A model generated the notes under the pieces. It saw nothing but the letters and a program-made list of their open reading frames with translations, searched no databases and had not been told where the DNA came from. From Discostella pseudostelligera (Eukaryota; Bacillariophyta; Thalassiosirophyceae; Thalassiosirales; Thalassiosiraceae): 53,431 bases of DNA. The stretch covers positions 1-53,431 of the forward strand of contig JALLBK010000039.1 of the NCBI GenBank assembly GCA_036940085.1, in the 5' to 3' direction. The position numbers were made by a program, and so were the translations under genes. Shown here piece by piece: positions 8,673 to 25,400 of the stretch. Every line of letters starts with the position of its first letter. The stretch's first letter is position 1.

Positions 8673-10090
8673 AAACCGAGAGGAGAGTCATAACATCATT
8701 ACGTAGCACAACAAATTTGAATCGTATGGTCGTGTTTTTGTTTGGATAGATTACCTGAATCATTGTCATGCTAACTCTATTGCTCGTTGAAAGAAGGTGC
8801 CAAGTATGTGTCTCTTATGAATCGACAGGTACTTGAACTCTGGGTTGGTGTAACAAATGACAGTCTTTAAAATTTCATCACCTTGACGTCCAAGGCAAAA
8901 GAACGTCGACACGGATTCGCTACAATCTCATCATCAGAAATGGTTAGCATCATACAATTGCCACTAAATTGAAGGATAATTGTGATTCCAAAAGCCAATG
9001 ACCAGTGGCCGGATATTGCATCTTGATTTTCCTTGTCCTCCTTACCTGAATTGGTTAGTGGTGATCCAGATTCCGAAGATTACTGATATCATGCTTACTG
9101 GGAGCGGACCATTCTTTCTCATCACAACAGCAGGTTGAACTAAAGTCTATCCCCATGTCACTTGCTGATTGATTGCGCATACCCACGACATTGGCCAAGT
9201 TGTCTGCGCCCCAATTCATTTTAAGCGATTTGAGATGATCAATGCACCACGTATCCCTACTTCCCACCGACCCTATAAGTATTATACGATTCGAGATACG
9301 TGTTGCGGGACAAGTAAAAGGGTGTCGTTTGTGTTGATGCTGGTAATGAATTGCGTGTTGATTGTACAGTTCAGTATTGGTCTTGGATGGAATTGGATCA
9401 GACATCGGACTTTGTTGTGTTGGTAGCTTCATTGTCATGGGAAAGGAACTTCTTTGGGCAGTAGCAGTATCGGATAGACAGCATCAGTATTCAGCATCAT
9501 TAGATAACAGATGCGGATGAATGGGGAGGATAGAGGTGCTGTCAATGTCAACGGTGGCTGCCACCGCCGCAGCCAAGCACCTCAACGCAAAGCTTGCATG
9601 CACGGCACAGAGCCATCAGCTCTTGATGCACATGCTACTGGGACATCCTCCACTGCCACTAGAGGGCTAATGCAGATCCAGTACTCCCTGTCTCCTTTCT
9701 GCAGAGCACCAACAGCAACGATACTCCTTCGAAAACAATTGATGATTGATGGAGATATCTAACCAAGTTGCAAGTTGGTCCAAGCAAGGTTGCTTGATGC
9801 TTGGATTCTGCTGGCACGCATTGAGTACTATCTTCCCGCCACCACATCTTCCCGTCAATTTCACCACCCTCTCTTCCCGCCATTTTTCGCCACCTTATTG
9901 TTCCCGCCATTTTCACAATCACCGCACACCGCACGTCCACCGTCCACCGTCCGTCACTCAACCGACCATCACCATGGCCGCCGCCGCCACGCCCAACGGA
10001 GGCCTTCCAACAGCACTGCCGCTATGAAGACACACCTAAATATAGCCATTTGCCCATACATGACCGGAACTTCTTGCTGCCAGTAACGCG
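8673..10090. other. Intergenic region; three E2F-like sites near the downstream gene
   Basis: About 1.4 kb without a supported gene. A 127-codon minus-strand frame (9055-9438) has an ATG but no domain and unremarkable composition. Close to the oxygenase gene, TTCCCGCC occurs three times (9833-9840, 9874-9881, 9901-9908), the last two followed by ATTTT. A short upstream frame starts at 9974 and another at 10024, both ending before the oxygenase ATG at 10091. Confidence 0.5.
9833..9908. promoter_or_regulatory. Cluster of three E2F-like TTCCCGCC sites
   Basis: Three copies of TTCCCGCC on the plus strand lie within 76 bp, 180-260 bp upstream of the oxygenase start codon. Two are extended to TTCCCGCCATTTT. 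The core is the binding consensus of E2F/DP cell-cycle factors in animals and plants. Binding by a diatom E2F is inference. Confidence 0.45.
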
Positions 10091-11881
10091 ATGGCATCCT
10101 TCAAGATCTCCACAACCACAACCAAAGCTGCAGCCTTCAACATTCCATATTATCGATTCCGCCCGCCGTTGCAGCTGCATCAGATCCAGATCCCGTCCAC
10201 ATCAACACCGTCATCACCGTCATCATCATTGTCGTCGTCATCTACGGAGTCATCACGCTCATGGGAGACATTTTCGACGAACCGATCATCCGAACAGCTA
10301 CTCGACTGCATCGATCAGACCACAAAACCATGGATAGACAAGGATGTATCGCGGTTAGGTCCAGAAAGTATATTTGATAGAATCAATGAGGAACACGATC
10401 GAGATATACAATGGGCGAAAGCCTCTTCATTGCCATTCGAGAGTGAAGCTTCTGAATTCGGTACTAACTCCATCGAATATGAATCCATCTATGGTGCAAA
10501 CAGTCGTTCTGCATTAGCCATTCGTTCACAACGGAAAACCCCAGTATTATCTAGAGATGAAATTCAATTGCTGAGGAGAGTGTCTGAATCTTATTGGAAT
10601 AGAGAACTTGATGAGGCAAATGAGATTCCAAACGGCAGTCGTTTTACCTACCAAAGAAGAGGTAATAGTGAAGCGCATTTGTCAGACGTCGTGCAACACG
10701 CTAATCAAAGCAATGCAAATAATGAGCTTACTTCATTGGTTCGTAATTTGCTCTTGAATCGGATCTACCCTTGGATTAGGGAGGCATACTTATCTCAAGT
10801 GAAAATTGGTGACGAGTTGAAATTATATGTCTATGATTCCTTGCTCATACGATATAATGCTACAGAAGCCAATGCAGACTTTGATCTCAAAGATGATAAT
10901 CCGGCGACTTATGGTGGCATTGGTGCTGGACAGCCGCTCCATCGCGATTTGGGATTCGTGTCAGTAAATATAATGCTCAATTCTCAGGATGAATTCGAGG
11001 GTGGGGGAACCTTCTTCGAAGACCAACTCCTTCCTTTGCTGTCGACAGAACACAATTGCGATGACATGTATTCGATACAACCGCTCAAACCTTATGGGCC
11101 AGGCCATGCACTTGCACACTTTTCGAACAGCAGACATGCCGGAGCTGCAACGTACGCGGGGGTTCGTGAAATTTTAGTAATATTCTTAGCAGCCACGGAG
11201 AATATAACCAAAGCCCCATGCGCTAGCAAGCCGGGAAAAGTGCCTAACTGGGAATACAATGCAAGGATAAAAGCCAACGCTCGAACATACTGTTCAGAGT
11301 GCTCTAGCACTGAGGATCAACTAATATGTCGAATCGTCCATCATCGACTTGCGATAGAAAAAGTGTTTGACGATGGGGAGGCATGGCATTATTTGGGGAT
11401 GGCTCTGTTAGACTACCATTATCACTTGCAGCGGTCTGATGGTACAGATGACATGAACATAACAAATAATGCAAGATCTGGGTTAGATCTGGTAGTGTCT
11501 TGCCTGTATGAGGCTACAAAGTACACACCATGTGACGGCAGACTCTACAACAATCTTGGAATTGCATTAGAACAATTGCTGCTTTGTGAAACCTTTCATA
11601 GCGTGGTAGAATTACACGACAGAGTTATATCTGCGTACGAACGAGCAATCAAGATTCTCTCCAAATGTGAACGATTGGGCATCGATGTCAGTACTGATTA
11701 CGCAAGTGCCTGTTTAAACTACGGACTGTATCTATCGAAACTCGACAACTTTAGCAATGCCATTGACGTATTGTCAAAAATTGTGCCGCCAAATGGCAGG
11801 CTGCTTGCCAACCATTGTCGATTAATCACAGACGCTAGCAACTTATTGTCATTTTGTAAGAGGCAATTGAATGTCAAATGA
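10091..11881 (+). CDS. 2OG-Fe(II) oxygenase of prolyl-4-hydroxylase type with TPR-like C-terminus
   Basis: A 596-residue single-exon protein. The central P4H-type double-stranded beta-helix carries the iron ligands HRD (in GQPLHRDLGFVS, near 280) and the distal His in SNSRHAGAATYAGVRE (near 350), whose following Arg would hold 2-oxoglutarate. FEGGGTFF between them is the usual family block. The C-terminal 200 residues form helical repeats (WHYLGMALLDY, LYNNLGIALEQ, ACLNYGLYLSK) that look like TPRs and could bind a peptide substrate. In collagen P4H and P3H enzymes the TPRs precede the catalytic domain, so this order is unusual. No signal peptide is clear. It likely hydroxylates proline or lysine in a protein. 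Its stop lies 77 bp from the stop of the polyamine fusion gene. Confidence 0.82.
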   Translation: MASFKISTTTTKAAAFNIPYYRFRPPLQLHQIQIPSTSTPSSPSSSLSSSSTESSRSWETFSTNRSSEQLLDCIDQTTKPWIDKDVSRLGPESIFDRINEEHDRDIQWAKASSLPFESEASEFGTNSIEYESIYGANSRSALAIRSQRKTPVLSRDEIQLLRRVSESYWNRELDEANEIPNGSRFTYQRRGNSEAHLSDVVQHANQSNANNELTSLVRNLLLNRIYPWIREAYLSQVKIGDELKLYVYDSLLIRYNATEANADFDLKDDNPATYGGIGAGQPLHRDLGFVSVNIMLNSQDEFEGGGTFFEDQLLPLLSTEHNCDDMYSIQPLKPYGPGHALAHFSNSRHAGAATYAGVREILVIFLAATENITKAPCASKPGKVPNWEYNARIKANARTYCSECSSTEDQLICRIVHHRLAIEKVFDDGEAWHYLGMALLDYHYHLQRSDGTDDMNITNNARSGLDLVVSCLYEATKYTPCDGRLYNNLGIALEQLLLCETFHSVVELHDRVISAYERAIKILSKCERLGIDVSTDYASACLNYGLYLSKLDNFSNAIDVLSKIVPPNGRLLANHCRLITDASNLLSFCKRQLNVK

Positions 11882-11957: not shown

Positions 11958-14900
11958 TCAGACTTCTTGGTCACTGGAGAGATCAGCCTTATCTTCATAA
12001 CCAGTAATCACGCCTACGCTCTCTCCAGTGCACTCCCTCCGAAATCTGTAAAAGCGATTACTTACTTAGAACTAGAAGCACGTAAGGAGAGAATAAAAAA
12101 TAAAAAACCACTTACGAACGTGCGTAGTCAGTTGCATCATTAGGGTCTCCAATGTATGTCAGGTAATCAGCTAGAATTTCTTCTCCTTTCTTGATGTCAC
12201 GGAGCGCACGGAGCACCCAACCCCCTCCAAAGATCATCAAGCGCCGGAGATTGCGTTCATAAATCGGACAGTATGCTGGGGCTCTGATCAATACATGTTG
12301 AAGAAGATCGGCACCACTTCGAACGTCGTAGTTGGCTTCTGTAACTTTATTTTCACGATCATCATCAGATATCAGGCCGTAATTGTACGTTCCATTGCAA
12401 CCATGATTGGTAAACAACATAACATCCGAATCAATCGCAACATTTACATCACCCTGGAGAAGTAGAAGATTTGTTGAGATATTTGTACAAGATCTGAACA
12501 GACGCGCCACAATCAGCACTATTTCGACTCACCAGGAGTATTGTCGAAGTGCCATACCCTAGAGTGAGAGGTCGGATGTGATACGAATTAGACAAGCGAA
12601 GAGATATTTTCTGTATATGGAAGGAGAAACTGTACACACCCTCAATGAACGTGTAAACTGTCGATATCTCGTCTTTGACAGAGGAAACGCCATCTGGGAT
12701 TTCATATATCGATTCAAGCACGGACCACGTCGACGGCGGAACAAGAAATGATTTGGTGGCCGAACCCAAACCAATAGTGGCATGGTAAGGAATATCTCGT
12801 AAAGCAAACAACCCTCGACCTGCACGTTCCCCAGCAGTACTCTTATCGACTTTTAGATTGTCCAGATCCAAGTTTACTCCAACAGATTTGTCACATTTTG
12901 ATCGAGACTCCTCTCCACGACAATACGTAAATTCTTGCGCCTTGGATGGTATCTGATAGCCGACCATCGTGGCCGCATCGAAGTACCGGAGACTGGACTT
13001 TCCCGATTTTGATCTACGCAGTCCGTGTTGTATTGCAAGTTGGAGCTCGGGGCCAGTTCTGTACCAGTCTGCCCTTGATTTGTAATCCTTTAACGCAACA
13101 ATGTATGACCACGGCATAAAGAAGTGACTGTGGCCCTGTGGAATGATATTCGAGGGTGAGTTAATTCTTTCCACGACACCAACAGGAAACAACTTCAGTG
13201 CTACTTACCTCATCATATGAGTGGATGCTTTCAAATCCTGATTGATCCAACGCCTTGATCTGTCAAGTGACGCCATGCAGATGTGAGGGTTTCAACGATT
13301 CAAAAGCCAGATAAATAGTGGGAAATGAAGTAAATTCGTGTGCATGGCTTACCATGCGTCCTGAGTCCTTGAACCGACCAATCTCATCAGGGGGGTCAGT
13401 GTTCATTTTCGATTTGCCTACTTGAGCAGCAAACTGAAATGATAAAAGAATCTGGTGTGAGTATCACTTTTGTCAGCAGCTGAATAGATAAAAGTGTCAC
13501 AGACTTACCACTCCATCAGCGGTTAATCCATTAAACAGCGAGTTGACAAAGGAGGTGTTATTGTATAATCCTCCGGTGTCCAACGAGTCCATAATGATGA
13601 CATCAAACTTCTTTTCCTCCAACTCATTTTCCAAGTCATCATCAAAGCTATTAATGAACCACGTGATTGCATCCCCGAATACCATACTCACCCTTGAATC
13701 ATCGAAGCAACTTGTGACATTGCTCCCTTCAATATCACTACAATCGGACCATTCCGGCATGTACATGGCACATAAGTTAATTAACTCCTCATCGATTTCA
13801 AATACTACTACCTCTTCGACACTCTTGTACTTGAGCACCTCGCGGAGCGTGGCGCCCTCACCCCCACCAATAATTGCAACGCGTTTTGGATTAGAATGTG
13901 TGATCATTGCAGGGTGGACAATGCTCTCGTGGTACGGTGCATCACCAAATAAAGTCGATTGAAGAATGCCATCCAAAAATAGGACCTTGTCAGGTCCAAA
14001 ATGCTCGGGGTGAGTTGACTCATACGATCTTTCCTCCACTTCATCTGCACGCAACGATTTATGGTACGAATTAACATTCCGAGATGTAGGTTCCATAACC
14101 TCGTATATATTGACACTTTGGTACGCCGTCTTTGTCGATAGCAATGGATGTTTGATATCAAAATCCAACTTGCCCAACACATAACGCCCCAAGCTTCCAT
14201 CAAGTGGATTCGTCGAACGGACATAGCCTGGAGCAAATCCCTCACGAAAGCCGCGAAGCTTATGAGACCAAAGCATGGTTGGTTGTGGCACATCCCCTTC
14301 ATCATCCTCATCGTTTCTCTCTTCGCTGGGTACGCCAAAGAGTTTTTCAATAGCGGGGAGTGTAGGTATTAACAAACCACCACCACAAGTGAATAAATCC
14401 ATCGTGATAACTCCCTCTAATGGCCAAGTGTGAAATGCCACATGACTTTCCAGCAAGACACCCGCACAGCTCACGCCGATCGGAACAAGCGAATGGCAAT
14501 GATAAGAAAGTAGCGTCAGTTTCGACTCGTTAATCAGTTCAATCATAGCAGTTGCCAACCGTTCCTCCGAATTGAGAAAGTTGGAATCCACATCTTTGAT
14601 GTCGACTAGTAAATGTTGCCCCGCGGGTAGGTGTAACCCATCTGAGTCATCATTGTGAAGACTGTCATCACTATTCATTGCCCCTGGCTGCGGCTGCGAT
14701 GATGCTGCCAGACTGCTCGCTGTTGACTTCTTCTCCTTGCCACGTGAGCAGCCGTTTGATTCGCATGGAACCCATCCATCATCATCACTTTCACTGTCCC
14801 CTCCCTCCGCCTGAAAGTTTGGCCCCCCATCAAACTCCTTCTTACTTCGAGACATGATCATTGCGGTAGTCCGATCAATGTGAAGTGTATGAGATGTCGC

Positions 14901-15404
14901 CGCCCCAGCCATTTGGAATGTTTTGGAAGCATATGTGGTGAAGGGCACGTCTTTCCCCTCGATGACTTTGGGTGCCGGTAATTGTCTCGACTTTTTCTTC
15001 CCACCTGCTTGCGTAATATCTTCATTACTGTCACCAACTATACTCTTTTTGGACATGCTAATGGAGGGGAAAGGTTGGTCCGTCGCGCTATCTTGTTGGT
15101 AGTGATAATAATTGTAGTATCCGGCGGAACTGTCATACTCGGCATTGCCTGTCCCAGCAGCGTAGGGAGGCAGCCCAACATGAGATAATAAAATGAGACG
15201 GGCAATCCATCCAACTAAGTAGGCGATGATGATGGGTATGCAAACCGTCGAGAGGAGGAACAATGCTGATAATTTGATGGAAAATCGGGAAGAGGACGCT
15301 GCTGGTGATTGAGGCGGAGGTGCACCATGTTGACTGTGGCCATTGCGGTTGCGGTTGCCGTTGCCGTTGCCGTTGCTGACCGCACCAGACTTTGATTTGC
15401 CCAT
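11958..15404 (-). CDS. Long-chain polyamine synthase fusion: AdoMetDC + aminopropyltransferase + SET methyltransferase
   Basis: Six exons by my model: 15404-13509, 13433-13353, 13259-13209, 13135-12533, 12453-12116, 12045-11958; 1018 residues, every junction GT-AG and in frame. Residues 43-73 are a signal anchor. A bacterial SpeD-type AdoMet decarboxylase follows: LLESHVAFHTWP holds the Glu-Ser self-cleavage site (Ser about 320), His and the FTCG cysteine, so it looks active. The aminopropyltransferase (about 440-750) has LDGILQS, YHESIVHPA, the IGGGEGATLREV dcAdoMet site and IIMDSLDTGG. GGGEG rather than GGGDG resembles thermospermine synthases. The SET domain has GRGLFALRDI (about 782), NHGC (893) and GEEILADY (967). 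Together they could make and N-methylate long-chain polyamines for silica. The ATG at 15404 is the first in frame; upstream codons lack one. Confidence 0.88.
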
Positions 15405-16487
15405 GTCAGCTGAATAGTAGATAGCAGAAGGTCGCTCTCTCAGAGAATTGATATTACGGACATGACTTTTTGTACTGGAGTTCGCGTCGTACCTCCTATC
15501 ACGCCAGTTCAATGGCAATGGGAAGCGAATGCATCATCATTCCCATCTCCATCATCCGATCAGTGATCGATGCAACTATTTATGCATACAGCGTGTGTTG
15601 ATTGGTGTGGGGTCGGTGCATGTGCTTGTAGGTCGGTATGTCAGTATGTCAATAGTAGTGTAGGTGCGCAGCTAGCGTAACTTATGCGAGCGGCGGCAAT
15701 GACGCCAATGACACAAATTCCAAATTCATCATCGGAGAAGATGACGCCAGAGGGCGCGGAGCGAGAGAAAGCATATGCATGGTACTCCTAGGTTCCGATG
15801 GCCAGGAAATATTATCACGTACGTACGAGAGCAAATAATGAATTCCTCACAAGAGTTGAAAGAAATGGAAGAAAGACAAATTCATGTGAGTTTTGCGATA
15901 AATAGAACACAATGACTGTATAAAATATCGCTTATTTGCGTGTCGTGAGGTGTCGTGTTGAGGCAGCAGCAGACAGACGCCCGCCAAACTGCGGCCGGCC
16001 GCAAGCTTCCACGTGACACGTGACAGACACCGACTCCAGCCATCCAGACAGACGATTAGACACGTCGACTTGCCACGTGGAAGACAGTAGTTCCACGTGT
16101 CTCCGATTGCTCGTCAGCGATCGTGCCTGTTGGTGTCTTCTGTCTTCTTGATACAAGTCCGACTTTTGTGCGTTGGATGAGCCGACTCGGCATAGCGCCC
16201 TCAGCCAAACAAATTTGCTGGGCTGGATCTTGAGGTAGAATGGCCCTGGTACGTTTCTACATACGTCGCGTCAATTCGGGCTGATCTGGATCTTCGGCTG
16301 CGTGCTGCATTGTGCATGAACGCAGATGAACGCGCGGCTGCGGCGACGCCTTCACCACCTCGATCATCGATCATGATATTATTTTACGAACAATAGATAA
16401 TCATACGACGACAGTATCATCATCATTGTCATTCATCGATGCAATTGCTTCGTCCTACTCACCAATAGCAACAACGGGAACACATCT
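15405..16487. promoter_or_regulatory. Head-to-head promoter region between the polyamine fusion and the giant chitinase
   Basis: It is the only sequence between two divergently transcribed start codons. Four CACGTG palindromes (16010, 16017, 16074, 16094) fall within 90 bp, most of them as CCACGTG. A perfect palindrome GCGGCCGGCCGC lies at 15991-16002. CACGTG is the G-box bound by bHLH and bZIP factors in other eukaryotes. No coding frame here is convincing; the 74-codon minus frame at 15932-16156 overlaps the motif cluster and has no ATG-supported domain. Confidence 0.5.
16010..16099. promoter_or_regulatory. Cluster of four CACGTG (G-box) sites
   Basis: CACGTG begins at 16010, 16017, 16074 and 16094. 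The first pair overlap in a CACGTGACACGTGA arrangement; the second pair are 20 bp apart. The cluster is about 390 bp from the chitinase start and about 600 bp from the polyamine fusion start. Factor binding is inferred from the motif only. Confidence 0.5.
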
Positions 16488-19400
16488 ATGCCGAAGACGA
16501 TAGCAATGGCGCCTTATAGAATACCGTTGATACAGTTAGTGCTCTTGGCACTACTCCCAACCTTGCCAGGGAGCTCTGCGGAGGCAGACGAGTCTCTGAA
16601 ATACTACTTCTTCTGCGGCTCCTCCTTCGCGGACATACAGGCCGACACATGCTCCGATCGCCAATGGTGTCCCTCCTCGTCTGACGACGAATGTACCGTG
16701 CCTGGACACACTTGCTTTGCCAACACGCCTTGCGATGCGCGGGAAATCGGTGGAGTGCAAGTGCCAACCTACTCGCTCAGTCAGCAGCCGGAGTATCAAA
16801 ATGCGACGGATAAAATGTTCTGCGGTGTCGATTACGCCGATGCCATATCTACGTGCGAGGCGGGAGGAGAAGAGGCGATCGGACGGCATTGTCCCGAGAT
16901 GAATTGCCCCGAAGGCCAGACTTGCTTCATCGATATGCCCTGTTCGTACTTTGTTCTGACCAATCCAATTGCCAGCCCATTAAGCAATGTCAATGATCTA
17001 CAGGCGGAGGATGTCGAATTGCCTGATCCTGGATCACCCGAATCACAATACTTTTGTGGAACAACATTCGAACAGGCTGCGGAATCTTGCTCAACATCTA
17101 CTTGGTGTCGTACGGGGACATCTCAGGAGTGCCCCAATGGACAAACTTGCTTCGTGGATGTGAGCTCCGTTAACCCCGATTGTGAAATTAATGCCATTAC
17201 AAAGACGGAATTTGAGACTAATCAAGCCAATTCCAAATCCCCCAGCATCAACATGGTACCAACACTCAAACCAACCAATAGTCCATTAACGAGCAAGGAT
17301 CCCAAGAATCGTAATTTTTGTGGTACAGATTGGGCGGATGCATCTTCGAATTGCGATCTGGAACGATTTTGTCCCAATGGAGATGACGATTGCCCCACTG
17401 GAATGACGTGCTTTGATTACACATCGTGCGATGCCATTGAGTTAACTTATGCGCCAACAGTGCCAGTGTGAGTGAAAATCACAACGTGTCATTATTATTT
17501 GATCTCTGTTTCTGTTTTTCTATTTCTTGCACTTCGGCCATACTGACTTCGAATTGCATTTGGCTTCCCCTAATGGGTTTAGCACTCTACCACCGAGTGG
17601 TGAACCTTCTTTGAAACCCATCAATACATCTCCCACGGACAATCCTACCACTGCCAAACCAAGTAGGGATCCTTCACCCGAGGTAAGTTGCTTCGTTGGG
17701 CAGGTGGGATACAATGACACAATGACGACGACATTTATTATGATGCCAACTCACTCTCTCCCTTCATTGATCAACATCGCACAGCCATCTGGAACACCAG
17801 TTATCAAACCCACATTGCCACCCTCCATACCACCCTCACACGCCCCTTTGCCATATGGTGACTTTCGCCTTGAATTCTGGTGTGGACTGAGTTATTTTGA
17901 TGCCATGGAAAATTGTGCACAACGATGTCCCAATGGAAGTGACGACGAATGCCCCGGAGAGTTAAATTGCTTGAGTGGAGTTACCGATTGCAAGAACGAG
18001 ATGGGAATGAGTGCGTACATGACGAAGGAAGATGGGACGGGGAATGAAACGATGGTGGATCTAGAAACAATGAGTAGTACAACTGATACTGCAACTAGCT
18101 CACCCAGACCAAGTCGTACACCCACGTTGTCGTCATCATCGGGGGAACCTGCCGCATCAATTAACAGCCTGAGTCCCTCTGCAGAATTACTAGAACAACT
18201 CTCTGAAAGTGCCAGCCCGGTTGCGGGGGTGGTTGCGGCTGAGGAGGAGTTTGCAGCTGAGGAGGCGGAGGACACGAACGAACTTCAAGGACCATTCGAG
18301 CAAGATATGGTGCGAATTATTTTATATGGGCTCGATAGCGACACCGTCCTCGCCGACGGCAACATCACTCTCGATAGTTGGAAGTCCTTGACCAGAACCT
18401 ACATTATGGATTTCTTCAACAAGTATCCCACACAGGAGATGCTCGATGCAGGGAATGAAGGATCCGATAGTATCCGTGCAGGACTTTATGATGTCACAGT
18501 CGTGATATCGGAGGAGACAATGGACGAAGCGCCACCACATGATTATGATCCATTAGTTGAGGGTGAGGTTGGCGTCAAGAATAATCGTAGGCATTTGCGC
18601 AGAAGCGCTAGCAGTGGCAGCAAAAGCAGACCCAACTATGCTTCATCCGCTGCCGAGCAAAAGATGACTGCTGCTATTCGTCGCACCCAGACCGGAATAG
18701 ACCCATCGAAAACAGTGATGATAACATATTCTCAGTCATCCACGTACCGATCTCCGCCGGATTTAGTCAATGAAGATCCAAGCATTATTATGCGACTTCC
18801 GCTAGAAACATCCGAATATCGAGCCGATTATGTGAATTACCTACGCGCGCGTGATTATGCCACGTTTCAGAATCTAGAGTATGCAAGTCAATTCTTTTAC
18901 ACCGACTTTCCAACGGCGGCTCCGGTAGGTATTATTACGACGAAGCCTACTGGGGGTCCTGTGGTTCTGGGCGAGCCCACTATGGCCCCAACACTCAGTC
19001 CTACTGAGGACTTTGGATGCAACCTTTGCGAACCTGGTCAAGCCGGTGTCGATGCCGAGTTAATGTTCAATGGTGAACCTTCGACATGTATGGAAGTTTA
19101 TAACTGGTTCCTAACAACTTATCATCAGGGTTCTGGTCCATGCCAAGAAGGTCAAACTCAGCTTAATGAATTATGTTGTCGGGATGTAGATGGAGAGGCT
19201 CAGGATGTCTCCGCAACTGAGAATGAAAAATCTATTGCTCCGATAACGGCAACTGAGCCTGAGCCTACGCTTGCTCCGATAGCTCCAAATGGACCAACAT
19301 TGAGGCCTTCTCAAATGCTCGAAATCCCCACGGATGAATTCGGATTGCCCGATGCGGCATCCCTCGCTGAAACATATTATTGTGGTTTGGATTGGGACAG

Positions 19401-22400
19401 TGTCGATTCCAATTGCGATACTGCTACACCGTGCCCTTCAGGAGCCAGCTCCGATTGCCCAGAGGGAGAGCAGTGCATTGCATTTACGAATTGTGGTGGC
19501 AAGTTTGTGTTCGTAAGCGATCCCAATGTCGACGGTGGAGGGCCTAACGCTGATAATGTGAAGAGTACATTTTATTGTGGTACCAGTGTGCAATTCTTGG
19601 AGAATAAGTGTGATGGTGCAACGCCATGTCCTAACGGACCAACAGATTGTGAAGGCGATGGGCAAGAGTTTGGCTGCTTCGCATTCACTGGATGCAATGA
19701 AGAAGTCGATCCTGGTAGCTTTGTCGGGTTCCTGAAGCCTCCGGATGGAAATAGCGCGAACATCGACACTGCAAGTACCTTCTTTTGTGCGACAACTTGG
19801 GATGAGTTGAATAGCAACTGCGTTGATGGCATCCCGGATGGATTTACTCCCTGTCCGTCCGGAGATATATTGGAGTGTGGTGAAGGTCAAGGATGCTTTG
19901 CATACGCGTGCAGCACGGGTGCTGAGGTTGCTGCTGTCCCCGCACCCTCTCCGTCAAACGATTATTCTGTGGAGGACTTGGATCTATTAAAGTCCACTTT
20001 CTTCTGTGGAACTTCCATTGAAGAGATAGATGGCGATTGTGAAAATGCGATCCCATGCCCCTCTGGTGACGAATGCCCGGAAGGATTTGGTTGCTTTGCT
20101 TTTTCTCAGTGTGGTGGCGTGGACATAAGTAGTTTGGTGGATACTTTTGGTGATACTGATCGTCCTACGCGGGCTCCAACTGTACCAATTGAACAGATAT
20201 GCGACGAAGATCGGAAAATGAGTGTGAATGTTGGATACTGGCAGTCTTGGAGCATATAGTGAGTGTCTTTTGACTTTGAGAGCCGCGTCCAATAACACGA
20301 TCCCATGATCATATATGTCTCATCTTCGATTAACTCTTCTTTCCACTCTTATGAAGTCGCGACGACGGCTGCCAACCAATGGCCACCTCGACCTTTGATG
20401 CATCTCCATATACACACGTCGTATACTCCTTCGCATCAATTGACTCGTCATATCGCATTGAGGCATGGAACGGCACCTACGACAACGAAGTGCCTCTCTA
20501 TAAGGAGTTCAACGCGCTCAAGCAACGTGTATCCGGGGCGAAAACGATGATCGCGGTTGGTGGATGGTCTCATAACGACCCAGGACCGATGCAACGCCGT
20601 TTTTCGCAAATGGCGGCGAGTGCAATCAACCGCGTCACGTTTGCCAATAGCGTCGTTGAATTTTTGAGAACGTATGGCTTTGATGGACTGGATCTCGATT
20701 GGGAATATCCTAGCCTCAAGGAAAGGGGCGGGAAACGAGAGGATTATGATAATTATGTTCTCATGGTAAAAGAATTGCGAGATGCATTCAATGCTGCTTC
20801 TGAACCTTTTGAACTCTCGGTTGCCATTCCAGGAAATGTCACCAAGCTCGAAATGGGCTTTGATCTAGCAGGACTGGCAGAACACGTTGACTGGTTTAAC
20901 ATAATGGCCTATGACTTGTGGGGATCATGGGATCCCAAGAAAATTGCTAAATCTCACACCGATTTCAGAATGATTGATGAGGCCGTGGAGTACATGAGCC
21001 ACTTTATCCAACGATCGCAATTGGTTTTGGGTATGGGCAGTTACGGTCGGACATACGAAATGAAAGATGAAGATTGCCTTGATTTAGAATGTCCTTTTGA
21101 TGGTCCAGGCAAAGCTGGGTGCGAGGGTACTGATGGATTCCTACCATACTTTGAAATCGCGGATATTGTGACATCGCGTGCATATGATTCACTGCGCTAT
21201 GACGATGACTCGGAAAGTATTGTCATGGTAACCGATGGCAATCGTCTCATATCTTACGACAATACTGTCAGTTTCAACAGAAAAATTCAATACGCCGAGG
21301 AAATGTGTCTCATGGGAAAGATGCTGTGGGCAATCGACATGCTGAAGGATGGATCAAATCCGCTCTCAAGTAACAGTGGCAACTCAGCATTGACTGGCGA
21401 TCCATCTGATCAGTCATTCTGCGGAAAAGATTTTCAGGATGTCATTAACGGGTGCAAGCAACCGTGCCCGTCTGGAGATAGCAGCCAGTGCCCACCAGGT
21501 GAACAGTGCTTTGCCAACACAGGTTGTAGCATTGACAATATTGGCGCGCCTCCACCTACCATGTGTCGATTGTGTACTGACCCAAGTACTCAGGGTATGA
21601 GAGATTGGCTGGAGGTGGATTTTGAGGGTGAAACCATGACGTGTGCCGACGCCGACATGAACGTCATCTCCGCATATGCCAAGGGCTCCGAAGAGTGCGA
21701 TTCCGCAAAACAGTCAGCGGCATCGACGTGCTGTTACAACTACCCTAACAATCCGTGCATGCTATGCCGATCTGAAACCGAATTCATGGATCTTCGTGCC
21801 AATGCTGAAATCGAGTATGATGGAATGAACATGACGTGCTTTGATCTTAGTAAGCGATTGGGACCTGAGGAGAATGATGGTCAAATGTGCATGGATGCGC
21901 AGAGGGAGCACTGGGACCAGTGCTGTTACAATGTAAGACTATGTTTGTGAATTATGATGTCATTGCAATTCATAGTATGTTTCATTTCGTTCTTAATCTT
22001 CGTTTTCTATTGATTTTACAGCAATGTACATTGTGTGAGGGGCAAGGCGTTAAGTGGTGGAACGAGGTCGAGTTCGACGACAAACCTCTCAACTGCGGTG
22101 AACTCGATTCACAGCTCTACACGAACGAGACGGAAGTTGGAGAAGAGATGTGCACAGACGTACTATCAGAATTCACCGGCGAGTGCTGTTATGACTACCC
22201 CACTGATCCTTGCGATATTTGCACCAAGGACGGGAAGAAATACGCACTTATTCCGAATGAGGAGGTCGAGTATGAAGGGTCCAATTTTACCTGTGCCGAG
22301 GTAAATAACTTCTTGTCTCCATTTGAATCAACAAGCAGTCAGTGCTCGGAAGTGGTAGACTTGGCCTTCGACGCGTGCTGTTTCGATCGGTGCTCGCTTT

Positions 22401-25400
22401 GTGGAGTGGGTGCTAGGCTGGACGCAGATGTCCTTGTGGACATCGATGGAGAGCAAGGAACATGCGCAAGTATCGAATCCAATCTGTTTCAAAACCAGAC
22501 GACTGACGGTTCTGAAGAATGTACCGAAACTAGGTCCCTTCACTACGATTCATGCTGCTTTGAAATAGTGAGTGAATATGCCCTTTCAGTTTTTGACATC
22601 ACGATTGCATTTGTACCAACCTTTGTTCCTTGCTTGGTATCAGCCTTCAACTCCATGTCAGCTATGCGGTACAGAGGAATACCTGCACTATACCACTACC
22701 GTCATGTTTAATGACGAAGAAGTTACATGCCGTAGTGCTAGCAACTTTCTACAGGAACGGGAGGACGCGACTTCCAAAACATGTTCCAATGCCAAAGCCG
22801 AGTTAGGCGGAACTTGCTGTTATGCGATCTGTAACATTTGCGGGGACAACGACCTAGACTGGGATGTGTTTGTTAACTATGACGGAAAGGATATGTCTTG
22901 CGGAGACTTTAATGAGATTTTCCGCGAAGAGGCCATCCAGGATGGATCGGAGCAGTGCGACGCACTCTCGGCGGACTACTCAAGTACGTGCTGCTACGCA
23001 AGCCCAACAACGTCTTGTCAGCTGTGCAAACAGGACGGGACTTATTTCGACGTCATAGAAAAAGCTGAGGTCGACTTCAACGGACCTACTACCTGCCTCG
23101 AAGTTGCGAACTTTTTGTCTCGCCGGACAGAAGACACGGACCCTGTTTGCTCCGTAACTCAAACATCTCTCTTCAACGAATGCTGCTACGAAAAATGTAA
23201 TATTGCCCAGCCTGGTACGTACCCCGACTGGACCGCTGAAGTCGAGCTGGATGGAAAAGTGGCCACCTGTTTGGAGCTCGAGGATGTCATTACGGAGGAG
23301 TCCATCCCGAAGAACAGCACCGAATGCCAAAGTCTACTAGATGCATTTTCGTCTACTTGCAGCTACAGTATTCCCTCTAATGCATGCGACATTTGTCCGG
23401 ACAAAGCTGTATCGATCAATGCCACTACAGAGTGGGAAGGCAAGCAAATGAAGTGCAGCGACATAAACAGCCGTCTTTCTACGAGGGAAGAAGCGGAAGG
23501 GGATGTTTGTGTGAACGCTCAGACAAGTCTTCAAAACGCTTGCTGTTTTGACCAATGCATGATTTGTGACAAATCAACGCAGAAAACTGACTCTGTTCTC
23601 ACTGTGTACCACAATGGCAAGACAAAGCAATGCACTGAAGTTGATACTTATTTCTACGAAATGAGCATCTTGGCCTCAAGCGACGAGTGTACTACGTCAA
23701 TTCCGGATTTTTCACAATGCTGTTACACGGAGCCAACAACCCCTTGCAACATCTGCAGAAGAGATTCCAAAGATTTCGATGTCATGGGCTCTAATACAGT
23801 CACTTATCAAAACCAAAAAATGACTTGTGCCGACGTTAATGACATGATGTTTCGACGTGAGGAAGAAAGCGGCGAAACGTGTTCAACGGCAAAAGATGAA
23901 TTATTTGATGCGTGCTGTGATAGCAAGTGCTCACTTTGCGCTTATAAAGGTCTCGAGGCTGGGGTCAAGATATCCTTCGAAGGCCGTATGATGACTTGTC
24001 TCGAATTAGATATGGGACTCGGTCCCGCAGCTATCATAGCTGGATCTGATCAATGCAATGAGATAACAAACAAGTACTCAGAAGATTGCTGTTACGATAA
24101 ACCCGAATCGCCATGCCGCATTTGCATAGGGGATAATGTTGGCGTGAGTAAGGAAGTATCAGTGAACTACCTTGGCACAGAGACTACTTGTGAAAGCTTA
24201 TCAAATTACCTCGGAAGCAGAGAAGAGCAGGATGGGGAGACATGCAAATCGGCATCGTCAGATCACTCTGAAAAATGCTGCTTTGAGCAATGTTCACTTT
24301 GTGGGGAAGGCAATGCTGACTGGGAAACATTTGTCACGTATGAAGGGCAGTCGATTGCATGTGGTGATTTTGAATGGATTCTCCGAGCAAAGAGCGTAGC
24401 TGCCGGAAGCGATCAATGCACTGCGGTGAAAGACGAATTTTCTGAGAAGGTATGTGCCCATTTTTCGATTCGACTAGTATTTATTTGATTCGATAATGTG
24501 CCCACTCTTCATATTCATTATTCTCCAAAGTGCTGTTACGACCCTCCTGAAACATCATGCAACTTGTGCCAAACCGACACGAAGTATCTCGAAGTATCTG
24601 GCGAAGTTCAAATAAATTATCAAGGCTCTCAGATGAACTGTTTCAGCTTGTACAACTCACTCTTTGTGAGAGAAGCTGCTGACAGCGATCAATGCCAAGC
24701 CGCCAAGGATGAATTTGCCGCATCGTGTTGCTTCGAAAAGTGCAAAATGTGCGCAGTCGGAATAATTGATACTGTCGCCACAGTCAATGTCACTGGAATT
24801 GAAACCAGTTGCTCTGCCTTAGACATGGGCTTCAGCAAGGACGTCATTGTCGAAGGAAGTGCTCAGTGCAACGAAAAGCGTGTAGAGTACGCAGATGCTT
24901 GTTGTTACACCCTCCCAAGTAATCCTTGCAGGATGTGCCCGGCAGGTTCTGATGTTGCCGGAGATGTGTCCGTCGATTTTTACGGAGTGAACAAGACTTG
25001 TGCTGACATTGGCAACAAACTTGCTCTTTCAGAAGAAGAAGGGAGCGAATCCTGCTTATCCACCCAACTAGACTTCTCTGAGCAGTGCTGTTTTGAGATT
25101 TGTGCTATCTGCCCAGAGGGCTACGACCTTAACTGGGAAGTTGACGTTGAATACGATATGACCACTATTGCATGTGGCGAATTCGACAATATCATTCGAG
25201 CCAACACTATCGGAAAGGACTCACAAGAGTGTAGTTCGCTTCAAAGTATATATACAAGTTCTTGTTGCTACAACTACGCAACTGCTTCTGGTGTCGGCCA
25301 TGCCACCGAAACGAATATGACTCAAGTCATAACAACAGGATCCTTGACTACTAATCTGGACACGTCTAATCTCACTCAATCGCAGATAGATGAAACCAAA

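Follow-up and report, generated by a model that had tools for sequence, protein, structure and literature searches.

Does one gene of the diatom Discostella pseudostelligera unite two enzymes of polyamine synthesis with a SET-domain methyltransferase, and what would such a protein make? The gene lies on the reverse strand of contig JALLBK010000039.1 (C39), which at its full length of 53,431 bp is called the window here and belongs to an assembly of 23 Mb in 963 contigs. It was predicted to encode a SpeD-type S-adenosylmethionine (AdoMet) decarboxylase, an aminopropyltransferase (APT) and a SET domain in one chain. Sequence comparison makes it somewhat probable that the product is a membrane-anchored polyamine-assembly enzyme that makes the N-methylated long-chain polyamines of the diatom cell wall, which precipitate and shape diatom silica. 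Long-chain polyamine synthesis appears to be the best available reading of the gene because its host is a silicifying diatom whose spermidine pathway is separate, its APT is thermospermine-like and its SET domain carries an NHGC motif and the presumed catalytic Tyr.

Gene structure and domain order

The coding region of the fusion gene (11958–15404, reverse strand, as for all window coordinates below unless stated otherwise) runs from an ATG at 15404 to a stop codon at 11958, and its exons (15404–13509, 13433–13353, 13259–13209, 13135–12640, 12558–12533, 12453–12116, and 12045–11958) were found to join into a single frame of 991 codons plus stop, giving a translation of 991 aa free of internal stops. 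All six introns are of the GT-AG type, with lengths of 75, 93, 73, 81, 79, and 70 nt. The original prediction had counted five and read 13135–12533 as one exon; this stretch was shown to consist of two exons (13135–12640 and 12558–12533), and the sixth, 81-nt intron between them (12559–12639) had been overlooked because it preserves the frame. Its 27 residues are missing from all seven homologues aligned over the junctions (P0001–P0004, P0019, P0045, and P0103), five of which are of MMETSP transcriptome origin going by their source names, and the five-intron model was ruled out on this basis. Besides, paralogue C9 of the same genome has no intron at this joint and reads through uninterrupted. 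The last junction (12115–12046) is the least supported of the six by homologue alignment, since P0001 and C9 diverge or stop there.

The other part of the exon claim stood, as the SET start AGRGLF (12823–12806) was found in the same exon as the APT C-terminus (13135–12640), and the fusion therefore survives the intron correction. A merger of two neighbouring genes by a wrong gene model, which the existence of SET-less relatives could suggest, is hardly credible in view of this shared exon. Two adjacent genes were rejected on the strength of paralogue C27, a 946-codon single frame containing all three Pfam domains, which makes the three-domain architecture independent of any splicing model, and of full-length transcriptome homologues, the transcriptome-derived P0002 and P0004 both containing the entire fusion. 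Pfam searches of the spliced product, together with C27, thus bore out the prediction of a single gene at this position with the domain order SpeD-APT-SET.

The SpeD part (residues 264–342; 14379–14615) matched PF02675 AdoMet_dc with an E-value of 3.2e-20. It has the processing site and active-site residues of a class 1 pyruvoyl AdoMet decarboxylase (SpeD), and the Glu-Ser, His and Cys that had been noted as retained were all located (Glu319-Ser320 at 14450–14445, His325, and Cys340). The SpeE-like APT core (residues 490–642; 13404–13937), which contains GGGEGA and MDSLDT and is split by the intron 13508–13434, matched PF01564 Spermine_synth with an E-value of 6.8e-31 and is followed by the C-terminal linker SLRYFDAATMVGYQIP (residues 724–739; 12947–12994), located in the exon in which SET starts. 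This linker is also found in the SET-less paralogue C661 and, by eye, in prokaryotic SpeE C-termini. The SET domain (residues 782–947; 12163–12820), split by the introns 12639–12559 and 12532–12454, matched PF00856 with an E-value of 5.4e-5 (24.0 bits vs. a cut-off of 22.4) and contains NHGC (residues 866–869; 12397–12408), YCPIYER, a motif of the YxPVx(E/D)R type (residues 911–917; 12253–12273), and GEEILADY with the presumed catalytic Tyr947 (12163–12186). Hydropathy predicts an N-terminal membrane anchor at residues 47–65 (15210–15266; Kyte-Doolittle mean 2.41 over 19 residues). A helix was predicted at residues 49–77 of homologue P0002, and a hydrophobic 19-mer was found in 84 of the 94 family members having a start Met and at least 70 residues ahead of SpeD. 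Between anchor and SpeD, the stretch QLPAPKVIEGKDVPFTTYASKTFQMAGAATSHTLHIDR (residues 141–178; 14984–14871) is partly common to C661 and visible in the family consensus.

Homologues and paralogues

A homologue search with residues 255–975 as the query scored 7999 candidates and gave 560 proteins at E ≤ 1e-3, of which 120 were listed. Many of the homologues have the same Pfam domains as the window protein. In the listed 120, the SpeD site reads ES in 116 cases and KS in 2, with 2 unmatched, and the SpeD Cys is kept in 117 of the 118 that were scored. NHGC is present in 52 of the 120, and 48 of these also have the Tyr motif. The full set of SpeD Glu-Ser and Cys, APT GGGE, NHGC, and Tyr is kept in 46 of the 120, among them proteins from Thalassiosira sp. 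AJA248-18 (P0003), Helicotheca tamesis (P0045), Pseudo-nitzschia australis (P0113), and Nitzschia sp. (P0118); taxids add Thalassiothrix antarctica (P0103) and Stephanopyxis turris (P0073). Thus, the fusion is present across centric and pennate diatoms, and all inspected homologues with an organism name came from diatoms. A tree was built from 124 sequences, of which 105 were left after removal of 9 with poor coverage and thinning at 95% identity (midpoint root, without support values). In it, SET-less groups are interspersed with SET-bearing groups, which we tentatively read as repeated loss of SET in the family.

The paralogues in the same genome appear to have lost different parts, judging from their motifs. 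In C9 (L030, 1660–4533, forward strand), Lys-Ser replaces Glu-Ser and Ala replaces the SpeD Cys, with the APT, NHGC, and Tyr motifs kept. In C27, the SpeD Glu-Ser is kept, Thr replaces the Cys, and NHGC and the Tyr are absent, although its SET domain still scores 23.5 bits against the Pfam cut-off of 22.4. C661 (L031, 575–989, reverse strand) stops ahead of the SET core and retains YDPVTER close to its C-terminus. Unlike C9, C27, and C661, the window gene has all its SpeD, APT, and SET motif sites apparently intact, and the four genes together would serve as naturally occurring partial mutants with which each step can be probed. Homologue P0022 resembles C9 in having Lys-Ser at the SpeD site and Ser in place of the Cys.

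Two other loci, C137 and C47, begin with APT; a SpeD-like part follows in C137, and none was detected by Pfam in C47. Long APT-first frames with ShK-like ends were observed at L032 (2002–5073, reverse strand) and L033 (1805–4789, forward strand) of the same genome; in L032 a SpeD-like part is located behind APT, and the ShK score is under the curated cut-off.

Besides the fusion, the genome contains one separate eukaryotic-type AdoMet decarboxylase, C393 encodes an ordinary spermidine synthase, and three places in the assembly match the silicon-transporter family. By these matches, the host is a silicifying diatom having a separate housekeeping spermidine pathway, for which the fusion would therefore be unneeded.

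Aminopropyltransferase type and SET domain

A profile of 65 fusion APTs was compared with solved structures, with the C393 spermidine synthase as a control. The best scores were obtained for Pyrobaculum SpeE (3.4e-47), Thermus APT (3.5e-45), and Pyrococcus SpeE (2.3e-38), and Medicago thermospermine synthase (4.6e-35) ranked ahead of human spermidine synthase (9.6e-28). For C393, human spermidine synthase ranked first, and the Pyrobaculum and Medicago enzymes last. By sequence, the closest solved relatives are thus of the thermospermine/triamine type or archaeal. The thermospermine/norspermine-type APTs among them (Pyrobaculum calidifontis SpeE, Thermus thermophilus APT, and plant thermospermine synthase) are also the leading fold matches of the P0002 model, in a list in which Trypanosoma spermidine synthase ties with them. 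They share the Glu of motif 2 (GGGEGA in the window gene), which is present in 120 of 122 aligned sequences and, with two exceptions, in the thermospermine synthases of a survey as described in passages of PMC11107197. A simple pattern gave Glu 117, Asp 5, Gly 1, and Lys 1 of 124 for this motif; the alignment count was preferred, the two differing probably because the pattern may match elsewhere in the chain.

Some observations on the APT weigh against the proposed enzyme. In the profile list, C. elegans spermidine synthase (2.8e-33) lies not far behind the Medicago enzyme, and the window gene has a Thr after the APT motif where the family has Pro in 109, a gap in 10, and Thr in 3 of 122. In motif 3, the residue of the window gene is Glu (among the 122 aligned sequences, E 118, D 3, and K 1) instead of the Asp given for plant thermospermine synthase in the same source (PMC11107197), and we therefore say only that the fusion APT resembles thermospermine-type enzymes by sequence, in contrast to the genome's own spermidine synthase. 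It also differs from them in being fused to SpeD and SET.

For the SET part, the model of homologue P0121 shows the SET fold, and with the NHxC motif and catalytic Tyr position of the window gene this agrees with a SET-domain methyltransferase. The closest solved folds of the model are SET protein lysine methyltransferases. A search for relatives of the fusion SET gave 89 matches at E ≤ 1e-3, of which 50 had the pattern NHGC(N/D/K/S)(G/N). The linker check excluded 31 matches that were too short and 39 without the NHGC pattern; the APT linker was found in all 19 NHGC-pattern matches with at least 150 residues upstream (13 by pattern and 6 by eye). Two weak matches, P0207 (5.4e-5) and P0209 (4.2e-4), belong to other kinds of SET protein and lack the linker. 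Free-standing relatives of the fusion SET were considered and rejected, as all judgeable NHGC-pattern matches carry the linker. By these sequences, the fusion SET type is confined to such fusions among the matches long enough for judgement.

The domain was named a histone N-methyltransferase domain in later papers, according to passages of PMC3820600 and PMC12029483, and its fold resembles histone methyltransferases. Nevertheless, a histone methyltransferase accidentally fused to polyamine enzymes is very improbable, given the predicted membrane anchor, the position of this SET type behind the APT linker in all 19 judgeable matches, and the lack of any chromatin-binding domain detected by Pfam in the window protein.

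One piece of the SET region outlasts the SET core. Among the 105 tree members, 92 have a C-terminal region of at least 34 residues, and in 40 of these NHGC is missing. Of these 40 C-termini, in which SET is absent, degenerate or cut off, 30 have the pattern (Y/F)xP(V/L/I/F/A)x(E/D)R, namely 23 of the 30 with up to 130 residues and 7 of the 10 that are longer. Where NHGC is present, the pattern occurs in 42 of 52; composition shuffles predicted 0.04 matches for the 40 and 0.11 for the 52. Six of the ten C-termini without the pattern retain the SET start GRG(L/V)F and are apparently cut off, and P0029 and P0119 are near-misses by eye. Since the shuffles ignore kinship, they indicate non-randomness alone, and the motif gains its meaning from its survival in separate tree groups. 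For the P0002 model, 50 alignments to solved spermidine synthases were listed. Nine of them, to enzymes of Trypanosoma, Helicobacter, and Corynebacterium, extend to residues 900–903, inside the motif YSPAGER (899–905); the other 41 end earlier. The YxPVx(E/D)R piece may thus pack against the APT.

These alignments and the kept motif, together with C661 and C27, could also mean that SET is mainly structural, a private extension bracing the APT with methylation lost or being lost. We consider this improbable, because NHGC and Tyr are kept in the window protein and in the homologues counted above, and an unused SET site would hardly be expected to persist across centric and pennate diatoms. Tentatively, the SET domain may have become a polyamine N-methyltransferase that exists solely as an extension of the APT, lies beside it and methylates the oligo-propyleneamine on exit, with the YxPVx(E/D)R piece structurally part of the APT as well; this would explain its retention in relatives without the SET core. 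On this view, the length and methylation of the chains in the silica of each species would depend on the part-losing paralogues.

Substrate, published fusions and neighbouring genes

With SpeD and APT apparently intact by motif, the SpeD part would self-cleave at Glu-Ser and yield decarboxylated AdoMet, from which the APT part would add aminopropyl units onto an amine acceptor, probably at the aminopropyl end in the manner of thermospermine-type enzymes, leading to 3-3-3 chain growth. The SET part would methylate the product using AdoMet, most likely at the chain nitrogens, and the end products would be the cell-wall long-chain polyamines in N-methylated form. Channelling of decarboxylated AdoMet and a site in or near the silica deposition vesicle are conjectural additions to this scheme. 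Should the SET part use polyamines, a substrate other than protein would be added to those of SET enzymes; searches of open-licence literature turned up no biochemistry of this part.

Further findings are unfavourable to this proposal. Of the 120 listed homologues, 72 do not show both SET motifs, some being fragments, and methylation would therefore be dispensable for some products. The P0121 fold matches are of modest TM-score, and sequence matches between the SET profile and solved SET chains are weak (best E-value 0.0022). No anchor was found in 10 of the 94 family members, and the charge around the anchor is of the N-inside type in 39 of the 84 anchored members, a split that favours no one topology.

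This split also counts against a protein substrate, according to which, in the secretory lumen, APT would aminopropylate silaffin-like lysines and SET would methylate those same lysines. The anchor could route the enzyme into the secretory path, and protein lysine methyltransferases are the nearest solved folds of SET. The APT, however, retains by motifs the usual small-amine pocket, and none of the solved APTs is known to use protein as a substrate. Furthermore, long-chain polyamines are also extracted as such from diatom frustules, as stated in a passage of PMC6356823. A protein substrate is therefore rather unlikely, and polyamine methylation is preferred.

Diatom fusions of AdoMet decarboxylase and APT, some with a histone N-methyltransferase domain, were described by Michael (2011, FEBS Lett 585:2627), according to passages of two citing papers (PMC3820600, 2012; PMC12029483, 2025), which confirm the reference of the original prediction to A. 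J. Michael's 2011 proposal. The role proposed there, long-chain polyamine synthesis and N-methylation, is the same as ours, and the domains, as described by the citing papers, are the same. The window gene, with SpeD, APT, and SET in order in one chain of a silicifying diatom, adds a further member to this published architecture. The comparison of APT types, the part-by-part losses, the SET exclusivity, and the retained motif do not occur in the citing-paper passages; the originals may hold some of them. The SpeD-APT fusion alone is described in passages of PMC6356823, PMC10968388, and PMC12533330, and passages of PMC12803844 (December 2025) report that Nitzschia inconspicua has 32 fusion proteins with an APT part and say that more work on the diatom fusions is needed. 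For the diatom-specific SET methyltransferases (Nemoto 2020), going by title and citing passages, wall proteins or polyamines have been suggested as targets. The passages on Parmales do not mention the fusion.

Animal spermine synthase, to our knowledge without a SET domain, has a SpeD-like part and APT in the same order, and the human structures 3c6k and 3c6m are among the fold matches of P0002. It was horizontally acquired and lost its AdoMet decarboxylase function (a passage of PMC12803844), whereas the diatom fusion keeps the SpeD motifs.

In prokaryotes, one genome scan with two peptide patterns gave 60 loci, in which speD and speE were by motif adjacent in 19, fused in 1, and both present but apart in 3, with SpeD alone in 24, SpeE alone in 4, and neither in 9. 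Many of the adjacent loci are titled Candidatus Scalindua, Brocadiaceae or Planctomycetota. No NH(S/G)C motif was found in the 28 frames examined from these loci, and a bacterial three-domain ancestor was rejected on this ground, although the absence is weak evidence because the scan used two peptide patterns only.

The window had no Rfam match at gathering score. At lower window coordinates, a 605-codon frame (10064–11881, forward strand) heads toward the fusion gene, with 76 bases between its end and the fusion's stop codon; it matched no Pfam family at E ≤ 0.01, and by eye it is similar to an Fe(II)/2-oxoglutarate oxygenase. On the other side, long frames at 16401–24488 (forward strand) contain repeated Cys-rich units, CG...CP.G..C...CF, on both sides of a stretch that resembles a family-18 chitinase.
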